Assembly: GCA_017510445.1 (NCBI GenBank) | Contig: JAFWNF010000003.1 | Location: 1-64,000 of the forward strand | Reading direction: 5' to 3' | Length of the DNA: 64,000 bases | Source: Candidatus Saccharimonadota bacterium | Lineage (GTDB): Bacteria; Patescibacteriota; Saccharimonadia; Saccharimonadales; Saccharimonadaceae | Part shown: in pieces, positions 16,121 through 19,897 of the stretch | How the letters are laid out: every line of letters starts with the position of its first letter | Numbering within the stretch: the stretch's first letter is position 1 | The notes under the pieces: model-generated | The model's database searches: none | What the model was told of the DNA's origin: nothing | The model's input: the letters and a program-made list of their open reading frames with translations, nothing else | Translations under genes and position numbers: made by a program

Positions 16121-16204
16121 TGATATAATGGAACCATATCACGCCATTAAAACGGCGTCTTTTTTTTATGGTTGTTTGACCGAAAAGCCAAAAAAGGAGA
16201 AATC
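16121..16204 (+). promoter_or_regulatory. promoter plus terminator-like hairpin leader of the MuF-toxin gene
   Basis: Extended -10 TGATATAAT at 16121-16129. An ACGCC/GGCGT hairpin (16141-16158) is then followed directly by eight T residues, and AAAAAAGGAG precedes the ATG at 16205. A terminator between promoter and ribosome site suggests attenuation or low basal expression (inference). Confidence 0.55.
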
Positions 16205-16894
16205 ATGAAAATTGATCCAAAGAATAAAGCCGAAATTGAGGCCTATGAAGAAATGGGCATTAAAAAATTCAAATATCTAGCTGTTCTCGATAGTCGCACT
16301 TCAGAAATCTGCCGAGATATGGACGGAAAGATTTTTGATGTCAAAGATGCTGTTCAAGGCGAAAATACTCCACCACTCCATCCGAACTGTCGCTCGACAA
16401 TCGTTCCATATATTAGCAAGGAATATGAACCAGAAATTCGAATCGCTCGAGACCCAGAAACTGGGAAAAATTACTATATCGAAAATATGAATTATCGGGA
16501 GTGGGAAAAGGAATATGTAAATAATAAACCAAATGTCCTTTTTGAAAAAAATGCAACATTAAATAGGAGAGAAGAAAAAGTAGTAAAATGGGCCAATAAT
16601 TATTTTGGAGGAAAAATAACTGTATTAGCTGAATCAAATAAAAGAGGAGTGAAAACGCCAGATATTCGAATAAATAACATTAAATTTGAAATAAAAAGCA
16701 CATCTGGGACATTAAAAACGCTAGATACTCAAATAAGATACGCTTCACATCAATCTAAAAATATAATTGTCGATATAACTGGAGCAAAATATAATGCCAT
16801 TGAAGCGTATAAGGTTATACGAAGACGAATGGAAAGAAACGATATAGAACAAGTATATGTAATTCGTAACGGGAAACTACTAAAAAGATTATAA
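16205..16894 (+). CDS. MuF/SPP1-gp7-type phage head protein fragment fused to a putative CdiA-like nuclease toxin
   Basis: 229 aa. The N-terminal ~95 residues carry the MuF/SPP1 gp7 head-morphogenesis core: LDSRTSEICRDMDGKIF and PPLHPNCRSTIVP, with the family's paired Cys and HPNCRS. After a linker, the last ~110 residues (from about 115) look like a polymorphic-toxin nuclease of the BECR/CdiA-CT kind: KTPDIRINNIKFEIKS, then LDTQIRYASHQSKNIIVDI. MuF-toxin fusions are established in temperate phages (MuF polymorphic toxins). Here no other phage gene is present and no immunity gene is recognisable next to it. The ATG at 16205 has a strong AAAAAAGGAG; the in-frame TTG at 16172 falls next to the leader hairpin and is less likely. 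Toxic activity is inference. Confidence 0.65.
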   Translation: MKIDPKNKAEIEAYEEMGIKKFKYLAVLDSRTSEICRDMDGKIFDVKDAVQGENTPPLHPNCRSTIVPYISKEYEPEIRIARDPETGKNYYIENMNYREWEKEYVNNKPNVLFEKNATLNRREEKVVKWANNYFGGKITVLAESNKRGVKTPDIRINNIKFEIKSTSGTLKTLDTQIRYASHQSKNIIVDITGAKYNAIEAYKVIRRRMERNDIEQVYVIRNGKLLKRL

Positions 16895-17005: not shown

Positions 17006-17050
17006 TGCTATAATTAAAACAACAACCACATCCAATCGGGTGTGGTTTTT
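17006..17050 (+). promoter_or_regulatory. promoter followed by terminator-like hairpin, ahead of the 25-codon ORF
   Basis: Extended -10 TGCTATAAT at 17006-17014. ACCACATCC (17025-17033) then pairs with GGGTGTGGT (17038-17046) around an AATC loop and is followed by a T run. The arrangement of promoter, hairpin with T run, then ribosome site repeats that seen at 16121-16204. Confidence 0.5.
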
Positions 17051-17089
17051 GTATATCAAGCCGAGGGGCGTAAAACGAAAGGAATTGCA

Positions 17090-17167
17090 ATGACGGAAGT
17101 CAACAACACCAATACCTCTGTAGAGAAAACTACTGATAGAGGCGCGCTCGAAACTTCCGAACAGTAA
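17090..17167 (+). CDS. 25-aa ORF of unknown function in the island
   Basis: ATG with AAAGGA eight bases upstream. The peptide is hydrophilic, rich in Thr, Glu and Asn, and ends ALETSEQ. That end is encoded by a copy of the dispersed repeat (17134-17161), so the ORF may be a decayed fragment rather than a functional peptide. It lies between a promoter-hairpin leader and the methyltransferase leader, so a leader-peptide role is possible but unproven. I do not recognise it. Confidence 0.3.
   Translation: MTEVNNTNTSVEKTTDRGALETSEQ
17134..17161. repeat. dispersed short repeat copy inside the island
   Basis: TGATAGAGGCGC followed by GCTCGAAACTTCCGAA. It shares an exact 20-mer with the copy at 47119-47143 and the same reading frame (ALETSE) as the copy in cysS. 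Confidence 0.55.
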
Positions 17168-17203: not shown

Positions 17204-17414
17204 TGATATAATCAAAGTGTCCAAACTATAAATTTAACACAACAGAAAACACAGAACATATCTGTTGTCCATAGTGCTTATTAATCGGGCACTGTAGACA
17301 GTCGAGCGCTATGTTCTGTTGTTAAAATAGTTTGGACACTTGCTACAGTGTCCGATTTTTGTTTGCGTAGACAGTGTCTAAAACTCGTTCTGTTGTGAGA
17401 AAGCAACAGAACAT
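17204..17414 (+). ncRNA. structured leader RNA of the methyltransferase gene (candidate attenuator / switch)
   Basis: Extended -10 TGATATAAT at 17204-17212, then ~195 nt before the ATG. A 15-bp perfect stem joins 17215-17229 to 17327-17341. Inside it, 17234-17239 and 17252-17260 pair with 17310-17325, and AGTGC/GCACT caps the top. The 3' strand GGACACT (17334-17340) can instead pair with AGTGTCC (17347-17353), which is followed by GATTTTTG: a terminator that excludes the long stem. GTTCTGTTG/CAACAGAAC (17387-17395/17404-17412) forms a hairpin right before the ATG, and TATGTTCTGTTG (17310-17321) is complementary to 17404-17415, which touches the start codon. The pairings are seen; the switching is inference. 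Confidence 0.65.
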
Positions 17415-18818
17415 ATGGCTGATAATAAAAATCTCCATAATGCCAACCGCGCAAAACAAGATGAATTTTATACTCAACTTATTGACATTGAAAAAGAACT
17501 AAAGCATTACAAAGATTTTTTTAAAGATAAGGTTGTCCTTTGTAATTGTGATGATCCTTTTGAGAGTAATTTTTTCAAATACTTCGCTCTAAATTTTAAC
17601 TATCTTGGATTGAAGAAATTAATTTGCACTAGCTATGCTGGCTCGCCAATCGCCCATACAGAGCTAAACGACCTTCCACTTTTTCATAAAGACGAAAAAC
17701 TCCCCTACATGATTGAAATAACAGAAGTAAAAGACGAAAACGGCGATGGCGCAACCGACCTTTCTGACATTAGATTTCTGTTAGAAAATGACAAAAACAC
17801 TCTCACGCTCCTCGATGGCGATGGTGACTTTCGTAGTGAAGAATGTATCGGCTTTCTCGAAGAGGCCGACGTAGTTGTCACAAATCCTCCTTTTTCTCTC
17901 TTCCGCGAATATGTCGCACAACTCATAAAATACAACAAAAAATTTCTTATTATCGGCAATCAAAATGCAATCACTTACAAAGAAATATTCCCATTAATTA
18001 AGGATAATAAGCTTTGGCTTGGACACAGTATTCATAGCGGAGATAGAGAATTTAGAATACCAGATTATTATGAAGTCCGTTCAAAATCGCTAAGAATAGA
18101 CGAAAAAGGGAATAAGTATATTAGAGTAGTTGGAGTTAGATGGTATACAAATATTGATTACGAGGCGCGTCACGAAAAACTCATTCTATACAAACATTAC
18201 ACTCCAGAAGAATACCCCAAATACGATAACTACGATGCTATTAATGTTAATAAAACTAGCGACATTCCATGCGACTACTTCGAAGATGTTGGCGTTCCAA
18301 TTACGTACTTAGACAAACATAATCCAGAGCAATTTGATATAGTAAAATTCCGCAAAGGTAACGATGGTAAAGATTTGACCTATACGAGAGAGAGAGAGAG
18401 TTACGCCATACTTCAGAATCATCATCAGAAGAAAGGCATAACGGCATTATGGGAGTCCCAATCACATTTATCGACAAGTGGAATCCAGCCCAATTCGAAA
18501 TTGTCGGAGCAACAGAATCTGAAGGAAAAGGTTTTTCTGAAGGACTCTGGGACGAAAGAAGCAGAATTGCCCAACCACTTGTCAACGGAAAACGAATATA
18601 CAAACGAATCTTTATCAAGAAAAAGGCGTAATGGAATTATGGGTGTGCCAATAACATTTTTAGATAAATATAACCCTGACCAATTCGAAATAATCAATGG
18701 CATTGGCAGATATGCTTGTATTGAAGCAGATTATACGAACCCGCCAGGAACATATGGGACAGATATTAACGGAAAACATACATATTTTAGAATACTAATC
18801 AAAAGGAGAACAAAATGA
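17415..18818 (+). CDS. EcoRI-type adenine-specific DNA methyltransferase, GA-tract and multi-cassette C-terminus
   Basis: 467 aa as assembled. The N-terminal ~290 residues match the EcoRI methylase family: QDEFYTQ near 15, the SAM-region VLCNCDDPFESNFF near 42, and catalytic motif IV TNPPFSLF near 156. It should methylate adenine in a short DNA site and protect against a partner nuclease. The family's C-terminal unit GVPITYLDKHNPEQFDI follows at 18291. At 18386-18400 lies a (GA)7G tract. In the assembled frame, ~80 codons after the tract are an out-of-frame reading of a second unit, and the protein then enters a third unit (GVPITFLDKYNPDQFEI) in frame. The tail is therefore probably set by repeat number. 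Its stop overlaps the DUF262-HNH start (ATGA). Confidence 0.85.
   Translation: MADNKNLHNANRAKQDEFYTQLIDIEKELKHYKDFFKDKVVLCNCDDPFESNFFKYFALNFNYLGLKKLICTSYAGSPIAHTELNDLPLFHKDEKLPYMIEITEVKDENGDGATDLSDIRFLLENDKNTLTLLDGDGDFRSEECIGFLEEADVVVTNPPFSLFREYVAQLIKYNKKFLIIGNQNAITYKEIFPLIKDNKLWLGHSIHSGDREFRIPDYYEVRSKSLRIDEKGNKYIRVVGVRWYTNIDYEARHEKLILYKHYTPEEYPKYDNYDAINVNKTSDIPCDYFEDVGVPITYLDKHNPEQFDIVKFRKGNDGKDLTYTRERESYAILQNHHQKKGITALWESQSHLSTSGIQPNSKLSEQQNLKEKVFLKDSGTKEAELPNHLSTENEYTNESLSRKRRNGIMGVPITFLDKYNPDQFEIINGIGRYACIEADYTNPPGTYGTDINGKHTYFRILIKRRTK
18291..18441 (+). other. C-terminal cassette 1 of the methyltransferase (native end in a different frame)
   Basis: It begins GVPITYLDKHNPEQFDI in the main frame and runs into the GA tract. 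The natural ending VTPYFRIIIRRKA-stop (18400-18441) is only in frame if the tract gains one GA unit (or loses two). The ending is clearly homologous to those of cassettes 2 and 3. Confidence 0.75.
18386..18400 (+). repeat. (GA)7G dinucleotide tract inside the methyltransferase gene
   Basis: Fifteen uninterrupted alternating bases. Intragenic dinucleotide tracts in methyltransferase genes are classic phase-variation sites. A change of one unit moves the downstream frame by two bases. Confidence 0.9.
18440..18631 (+). other. C-terminal cassette 2, in the alternate reading frame
   Basis: It encodes NGIMGVPITFIDKWNPAQFE, then GATESEGKGFSEGLW, and ends KRIYKRIFIKKKA-stop at 18631. It is in frame with the methyltransferase only if the tract loses one GA unit. 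Its AAC-GGC start overlaps the TAA stop of cassette 1. An internal ATG at 18449 has AGAAAGG upstream and might also be used on its own. Confidence 0.75.
18630..18818 (+). other. C-terminal cassette 3, in frame in the assembled sequence
   Basis: It encodes NGIMGVPITFLDKYNPDQFE, a distinct middle segment NGIGRYACIEADYTNPPG, and the ending KHTYFRILIKRRTK-stop. It starts on the TAA of cassette 2 (TAATGG), as cassette 2 starts on the TAA of cassette 1 (TAACGG). Confidence 0.75.
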
Positions 18819-19897
18819 AAATCGAACTTCATAATATTAAAATTAAAGATGTTTTTAATGGATATAAAGACAGTGACGAAGAAGGTATTGTTGGCTTCGA
18901 CGGCAAACTTAATATTCGTCCAAAATATCAACGCGAATTTGTTTATGGCGATAAAGAACGAACGGCAGTAATTAGTACGATTAACAAAGGGTTTCCTTTG
19001 AACGTAATGTATTGGATGAAAAATGACGATGGAACATTTGAGCTGCTTGATGGACAACAAAGGACGATTTCGTTTTGTCAATATCTCAACGGTGATTTCT
19101 CGGTAGATGGAAAATACGCGCACAATTTAACTTCTGATCAAAGAGAAAAAATCGAAAACTATGGCTTATTCATTTATATCTGCGAAGGAACTGATAGTGA
19201 AAGACTAGACTGGTTTAGGATTATTAATATTGCAGGTGTAAAATTGACCGAACAAGAACTTAGGAATGCAACTTATACTGGTCCGTGGCTTACTGATGCG
19301 AAACGACATTTCTCAAAAACTAACTGTCCTGCCTATGGTCTCGCCGAAAAATATATGAACGGCTCGCCAATTCGCCAAGATTATCTCGAATCGGCTCTAA
19401 AATGGATTTCTGACGGAAGTATTGAAGAATATATGTCTCGCCACCAACATGACGACAACGCTTCTGGGCTCTGGCAATACTTCCAAACCGTGATTTCTTG
19501 GGCGCAAACTATTTTCCCAACATACCGCAAAGAAATGAAAGGTCTAGAATGGGGTGAACTTTATAATAAATATCACGAAAACACCTATGACGCCCAAAAA
19601 CTTGAAATTGAAATTTCTCGACTTATGCAAGATGAAGATGTTACGGCGAAAAAAGGCATCTATGAATATTTACTCTCTGGCGACGAAAGATTTCTCAGCA
19701 TCCGCGCTTTTTCCGATAGTCAAAAACGCGAGGCTTATGAGCGCCAAGGTGGAATCTGCCCAATCTGTAAAGAACATTTTGAAATTTCTGAAATGGAAGC
19801 CGACCATATCACTCCTTGGAGCCAAGGCGGAAAAACTTCTTCCGAAAACTGCCAAACGCTCTGCCGTGATTGCAACCGCCGAAAAAGCGATAAATAA
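18815..19897 (+). CDS. DUF262-HNH nuclease, putative restriction partner of the methyltransferase
   Basis: 360 aa. The N-terminal DUF262 (GmrS/ParB-like) domain shows PKYQREFVYG near 29-38 and LLDGQQRT near 73-80. The C-terminal HNH domain is complete: CPICKEHF near 314, DHITPWSQGG near 329-338 and CQTLCRDCNRRK near 346-357. In GmrSD and related systems DUF262 binds nucleotide through DGQQR and couples to a nuclease; here a single chain joins DUF262 to HNH. The ATGA overlap with the methyltransferase predicts translational coupling and a restriction-modification-like pair. Whether it cuts unmodified or modified DNA cannot be told from sequence. Confidence 0.82.
   Translation: MKIELHNIKIKDVFNGYKDSDEEGIVGFDGKLNIRPKYQREFVYGDKERTAVISTINKGFPLNVMYWMKNDDGTFELLDGQQRTISFCQYLNGDFSVDGKYAHNLTSDQREKIENYGLFIYICEGTDSERLDWFRIINIAGVKLTEQELRNATYTGPWLTDAKRHFSKTNCPAYGLAEKYMNGSPIRQDYLESALKWISDGSIEEYMSRHQHDDNASGLWQYFQTVISWAQTIFPTYRKEMKGLEWGELYNKYHENTYDAQKLEIEISRLMQDEDVTAKKGIYEYLLSGDERFLSIRAFSDSQKREAYERQGGICPICKEHFEISEMEADHITPWSQGGKTSSENCQTLCRDCNRRKSDK

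Follow-up and report, generated by a model that had tools for sequence, protein, structure and literature searches.

A candidate family of pseudoknot-gated transcription attenuators in Saccharibacteria, represented in the leader of an EcoRI-type methyltransferase gene

The leader of an EcoRI-type methyltransferase gene in Saccharibacteria probably belongs to a family of cis-acting transcription attenuators that is specific to Saccharibacteria and gated by a pseudoknot, as judged from sequence comparison and modelled folds. The family appears to consist of pseudoknotted leaders from one Saccharibacteria order and to have been uncatalogued until now. The leader lies in the window, a stretch of 64,000 nucleotides from contig JAFWNF010000003.1 of a Candidatus Saccharimonadota genome (858 kb, 19 contigs), and its parts are all on the forward strand. 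On the same strand, the gene at 17415-18818 encodes an EcoRI-family adenine-specific DNA methyltransferase that matches PF13651 at E = 3e-158. The gene for the cognate HNH/GmrSD-N type II restriction endonuclease overlaps it and occupies 18815-19897. Upstream of the leader lie open reading frames (ORFs) that look like genes for the ribosomal proteins S12 and S7.

Transcription is predicted to depend on an extended -10 box (TATAAT at 17207-17212, with TG at 17204-17205), which is assigned from its sequence and from the -10 statistics of the class. It places the putative +1 at about 17217-17219, at the start of the outer stem P1. The 5' strand of P1, S1 (17215-17229), is identified by helix search and P1 covariation, and its 3' strand is S3 (17327-17341). 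The preliminary description had drawn this stem as a 15-bp helix, and it is indeed perfect. Since the TATAAT box sets the 5' end of the RNA at the beginning of the stem, up to three of the outermost pairs, and at least one, may precede +1. Pairing and covariation further define helix P1.1, formed by A1 (17239-17247) with 17314-17322, and the hairpin P2 (17270-17313, CATAGTGCTT/GAGCGCTATG). A small, variable junction hairpin, P3 (17251-17265, ACAGA/TCTGT), is read from the sequence, and its arms are complementary in relatives by eye. S3 also serves as the 5' arm of an intrinsic-terminator-like hairpin (17332-17360), recognised from sequence and covariation, in which 17332-17340 pairs with 17347-17355, followed by TTTTTG and including the U-tract at 17356-17360. 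The terminator hairpin of the preliminary description is thus real and, as described there, reuses the 3' strand of the long stem.

The pseudoknot is formed by AATCGGGCACTGTAG in the inner hairpin loop (S2, 17283-17297, within the P2 loop) and CTACAGTGTCCGATT directly 3' of the long stem (S4, 17343-17357). Together they give a crossing helix of 15 bp, found by helix search, which ends at the U-tract. Covariation supports both strands, S2 also being supported by shuffles, and S4 doubles as the 3' arm of the terminator. The top-scoring pair of crossing helices reaches 35, against a maximum of 21 among 400 dinucleotide shuffles. The minimum free energy of the leader has z = -6.2, with 0 of 200 shuffles as stable. 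The preliminary description had overlooked the pseudoknot, together with P2, P3, the TATAAT box and a second copy of the S1 sequence at 17373-17382, which can also pair with S3.

In the proposed mechanism, transcription would begin at the first bases of P1, and four segments would compete, with S1:S3 (P1) and S2:S4 (the pseudoknot) excluding the intrinsic-terminator hairpin S3:S4. Timely formation of the pseudoknot would tie up S4 together with part of the U-tract, and RNA polymerase would read through; otherwise S3:S4 would form and the transcript would stop near 17360. Read-through would thus correspond to P1 with the pseudoknot and termination to S3:S4, and a physiological signal presumably sets the choice of fold. 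Sequence, covariation and energies point to exclusive terminator and antiterminator folds upstream of a gene, the arrangement of a transcription attenuator, which is the predicted function. When P1 and the terminator are each forced without the pseudoknot, the mean difference is -2.5 kcal/mol over 55 members and -1.7 kcal/mol over 20, and the duplex of the pseudoknot contributes roughly -18 to -20 kcal/mol with loop penalties ignored. Because the P1 and terminator energies are nearly equal and the pseudoknot is strong, the pseudoknot would be the natural decider. A point against this attenuator reading is that in the window P1 wins over the terminator by 7.5 kcal/mol without any help from the pseudoknot. 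Termination as the output is supported by separate hairpins of the intrinsic type, each with a U-tract, that stand between the pseudoknot and the start codon in L102, L104, L125, L127 and L132.

Searched at the DNA level, 174 genomes of the genus yield about 12 homologous leaders with 69-81% identity over most of their length. A first covariance model, built from seven leaders with the pseudoknot left out, detects the element in 29 of the 394 genomes tested from the taxonomic family. A second model (R2), built from 22 aligned members, was run on 393 genomes of the order and is positive in 74 of them, spread over 30 genera; among the 317 good genomes, 73 are positive. These large-sample counts are lower bounds because of the strict filters. 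Covariance searches recover about 90 homologous leaders in one order of Saccharibacteria. The 11 positive genomes of a phylum-wide sample all belong to this order, and a class-wide sample adds one match in another family, in a genome of 630 contigs with 5% contamination. With looser filters, genome G166 holds 11 family matches at E < 0.02. The near-palindromic character of the element gives rise to antisense model matches, which a score cut-off removed from the independent test set. Alignments were redone with covariance models, since MAFFT misaligned the 3' strand of P1.1 between subgroups. The window matches model R2 at 126.7 bits (E = 1.2e-26), being itself part of the seed. It shows the family structure (P1 at +1, P1.1, P2 and a pseudoknot from the P2 loop to sequence 3' of P1) and the family context (a -10 box just upstream, a 3' U-tract and a sense ORF downstream). 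The leader at L103:1508-1700 matches L104 almost exactly over its first approximately 45 nt and continues with unrelated hairpins; it is apparently a decayed or rearranged copy.

Covariation among these homologues was the check proposed in the preliminary description, and it supports the mutually exclusive folds. The 22-member alignment was fitted to P1, P1.1 and P2, and the pseudoknot was left unfitted; 91% of its cells pair in this set (35-44% when the strands are slid), with double-side changes in 11 of 14 pairs. Among 63 independent members outside the model, 93% of pseudoknot cells pair (slid, 42-55%) and 10 of 15 pairs have changed on both sides. The covariation score in these members is 0.388, compared with 0.160 after shuffling (0 of 500). 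P1 shows both-side changes in 11 of 12 pairs in the same 63 members, and P1, P1.1 and P2 together have double changes in 26 of 27 pairs, in an alignment that is biased towards these stems because it was fitted to them. The terminator hairpin S3:S4 covaries in the first set (0.261 vs 0.155) and weakly in the 63-member set (0.071 vs 0.038, 8 double-change cells). Strong conservation of the strands is expected, since S3 pairs with both S1 and S4, and S4 with both S2 and S3. The weakness of the S3:S4 covariation in the larger set, and its partial origin in the second partner of each strand, count against the attenuator reading.

A further point against that reading is that A residues of the pseudoknot pair with the U-tract, as those of a terminator stem would. 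It raises the unlikely alternative of a reversed polarity, in which the pseudoknot helix at the U-tract is itself the terminator and its opening lets transcription continue. The helix reaches into the U-tract through an A-rich segment, and column 126/283 changes from A:U to U:A or C:G. A terminator of this kind, however, would need its 3' strand to reach over P1 to a partner some 45-100 nt upstream. Conservation extends to the local S3:S4 hairpin, including bases outside P1, and class-B relatives such as L104 have the pseudoknot without a U-tract, followed by a separate terminator hairpin.

A -10-like box stands 2-8 nt ahead of the element in 91 of 94 members, with an exact TATAAT in 65 of 94 (background 1.2%), and the element ends in a U-run in 85 of 94. 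Of the 62 members that could be tested, 60 have an ORF of at least 60 codons that begins no more than 130 nt downstream, compared with 23 in the opposite direction. These data bear on two further explanations. The terminated RNA of roughly 150 nt could be the main product, a stable trans-acting small RNA with incidental read-through into the gene. Its own promoter, compact fold and U-tailed 3' end would suit such an RNA, but this is improbable given that the element lies nearly always directly 5' of a sense ORF, that in L164 and L166 the Shine-Dalgarno (SD) sequence is only a few nucleotides from the U-tract, and that the methyltransferase leaders carry complementarity to their start codon in cis. 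Still less credible is a feature of the DNA, with the palindrome forming the ends of a mobile element or the operator of a regulator. The 15-bp terminal inverted repeat and the horizontal movement of restriction-modification cargo would fit this picture; the fixed position between -10 box and ORF, the covariation of crossing helices and the U-tract speak against it. The leader also does not travel with the gene: among 80 EcoRI-type methyltransferase loci drawn from GTDB, only the Saccharibacteria locus L016 is positive and the other 79 have no such leader, so carriage along with restriction-modification genes across phyla was rejected. Phage carriage was likewise rejected, as 68 pattern matches in viral contigs gave 0 covariance-model matches. 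A leader-peptide attenuator was considered and discarded, since only 8 of 88 members contain an internal ORF of at least 8 codons with an SD-like sequence, and the internal ORFs of the window leader are all very short.

The genes downstream of the family are diverse. They include several types of methyltransferase (EcoRI_methylase, N6_N4_Mtase, C5 DNA_methylase, Eco57I and MmeI, and N6_Mtase) and other genes, many of which seem by eye to encode membrane-anchored or secreted proteins (DUF4352, DUF5067, DUF6591 and many unassigned). Consequently, the element is not a methyltransferase-specific device. The PF13651 gene occurs in 22 genomes of the genus, and the leader is near it at 16 of the 22 examined loci. 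Among the PF13651 loci, L297, L300 and L306 have a plain promoter with the start codon close behind, and the leaders of L316 and of L330, the G167 locus, belong to a second family.

The surroundings of the window leader contain several other elements. The gene at 16172-16894 encodes a Phage_Mu_F domain and a CdiA_C toxin domain; a separate promoter-like TATAAT lies ahead of it at about 16124, and a short hairpin of the GGCGT type, with a T-run, stands just upstream of the gene. The region 17007-17167 contains another promoter-like TATAAT followed immediately by a terminator-like hairpin (17024-17047), and a 25-codon ORF (17090-17167) stops just ahead of the leader. Within the methyltransferase gene (region 18386-18818), a (GA)7 tract at 18386-18399 leads into three exit frames, all with a plausible C-terminus: ...VTPYFRIIIRRKA, ...GIMGVPITFIDKWNP...RIFIKKKA and, as assembled, ...GIMGVPITFLDKYNP...RILIKRRTK. 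Slippage in this tract could pick among alternative C-terminal cassettes of the methyltransferase, perhaps for target recognition. Repeats of the (GACA)n type precede duplicated cassettes in different frames in L010, L037 and L054, a similar repeat stands ahead of one detected cassette in L017, and (GA)6 tracts occur in L016 and L044.

The methyltransferase leaders may carry a second layer of control at the start codon. In the window, 17310-17323, which includes the 3' strand of P1.1, is complementary to 17239-17247 and 17251-17260 and likewise to the segment at 17402-17415, a copy of the A1 strand that runs up to the start codon. This double complementarity had been pointed out in the preliminary description, as had a start-codon hairpin; the latter is present at 17387-17396/17403-17412, and its loop carries an SD-like GAGAAAG, so that 17387-17412 is a predicted ribosome-binding hairpin. 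Once freed, the 3' strand of P1.1 and S3 could pair with the copy of their 5' strand at the start codon, and the event that favours termination could also block translation of transcripts that escape. The duplex of 3' strand and start codon in the window has z = -5.0 relative to mononucleotide shuffles. The median is -2.0 in 26 restriction-modification leaders and about 0 in 56 other leaders, which places the start-codon layer mainly in the methyltransferase leaders and rules it out as a class-wide rule. The idea that one RNA holds exclusive folds for both termination and translation is supported by covariation in the homologues, although it was framed without the decisive pseudoknot. The suggested purpose, a delayed or titrated expression of the modification enzyme, fits the translation layer as restriction-modification control. 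It cannot be the general purpose of the termination layer, because most members of the family do not precede methyltransferases. The other purpose suggested there, that the leader senses a ligand or an antisense RNA, is conceivable.

A second family follows the same plan with unrelated sequence. Its leaders at L316/L327, L328 and L330, all ahead of methyltransferase-like genes (for example L316:1338-1489), have the sequence GCTAAAC...GCGGCCATTTAC...GTTTAGCGACTAAGTAAATGGTCGC and then a T-rich stretch. P1 lies near +1, a hairpin loop pairs over about 12 bp with sequence immediately 3' of P1 to give the pseudoknot, and a local terminator hairpin is present. In ten members, P1 and the pseudoknot covary, with 99.5% of positions paired and double changes in 5 pairs. 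A copy of the P1 5' strand ends at the ATG in L316/L327, L328 and L330, and by eye the other members shown have no such copy. At the DNA level, up to 36 of the 166 genus genomes searched contain matches to this family, many of them short. A third variant of the plan, with weak matches, seems to be present in L100 and L101. It lies near position 1511 in the oriented loci, precedes non-methyltransferase genes and has a 15-bp pseudoknot (GTGGAGCACCTCGCT/AGCGGGGTGTTCCAC). A broader reading, offered tentatively, is a lineage-specific RNA regulon in which two or more families of pseudoknot switches, unrelated to each other in sequence, control restriction-modification and surface genes in response to a common signal, with a start-codon lock for methyltransferases.

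The trigger may instead be named more specifically. In a true riboswitch, the three-way junction and pseudoknot would form a binding site for an ion or small molecule whose binding stabilises the pseudoknot, and surface and defence genes would be controlled in this way. This is a special case of the attenuator explanation, conceivable and clearly less probable than the general form. A junction and pseudoknot over a terminator are typical riboswitch architecture, as many as 12 family matches occur per genome, and many members have a purine-rich, RCA-like stretch after S2 (by eye). On the other hand, strictly conserved unpaired bases are few (partly by eye), the downstream genes share no pathway, and the second family achieves the same plan with unrelated sequence, so that no common binding pocket is apparent. 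Rfam offers no match either: Rfam 15 returns no family for the window at gathering thresholds or for 27 member-bearing loci at relaxed E-values. The leader can accordingly be described as a candidate of the riboswitch or attenuator type, and a claim to a riboswitch class would require a ligand. No paper found in the literature on leader RNAs, riboswitches and restriction-modification attenuators in Saccharibacteria or Patescibacteria, searched mostly within its open-access part, describes the element.

Several known systems resemble the family in part. The fluoride, preQ1-I and SAM-II riboswitches are pseudoknotted and control an intrinsic terminator. Beyond the Rfam comparison, and from general knowledge of these RNAs, the likeness lies in a 5'-leader pseudoknot that uses sequence overlapping the terminator hairpin. 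The present family differs in its lack of an Rfam match, its P1 of about 12-15 bp at +1, its three-way junction, its pseudoknot of about 11-15 bp and its diverse downstream genes. T-box and leader-peptide attenuators similarly have leaders with alternative antiterminator and terminator folds; in the present family, unlike leader-peptide attenuators, internal ORFs are short and SD-like sequences rare, and the Rfam T-box model matches neither the window nor the member-bearing loci. L203:2388-2527 (minus strand) aligns with the full length of the Lactococcus leu-phe_leader model RF01743, and both end in a terminator; with a score of 37 bits where the gathering threshold is 70, and as one of about 27 loci tested, this match is probably due to chance. 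Viral exonuclease-resistant RNAs share the topology, in which the loop of a junction hairpin pairs just 3' of the closing stem, but differ in stem lengths, context and terminator, so that the similarity is a resemblance only. Restriction-modification genes are known to be regulated by controller proteins, promoter methylation and antisense RNA. The window leader also precedes a restriction-modification operon, whose control by it is predicted, but the family would act through an RNA fold in cis that is common to other genes.

Saccharibacteria are tiny parasitic episymbionts with reduced genomes, and little is known of their gene regulation. An order-wide, covarying RNA in front of restriction-modification and surface genes provides a testable handle on how defence and host contact are adjusted. 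If the regulon reading is true, a common signal such as host attachment or nutrient state would be involved. The design is compact, with four near-complementary strands that set a pseudoknot against a terminator, and it is found in two sequence-unrelated families. A 2024 review calls for inducible systems for Saccharibacteria and lists riboswitches as candidates (PMC11665869). The family may represent a new riboswitch class and could perhaps serve as a tool for inducible expression.
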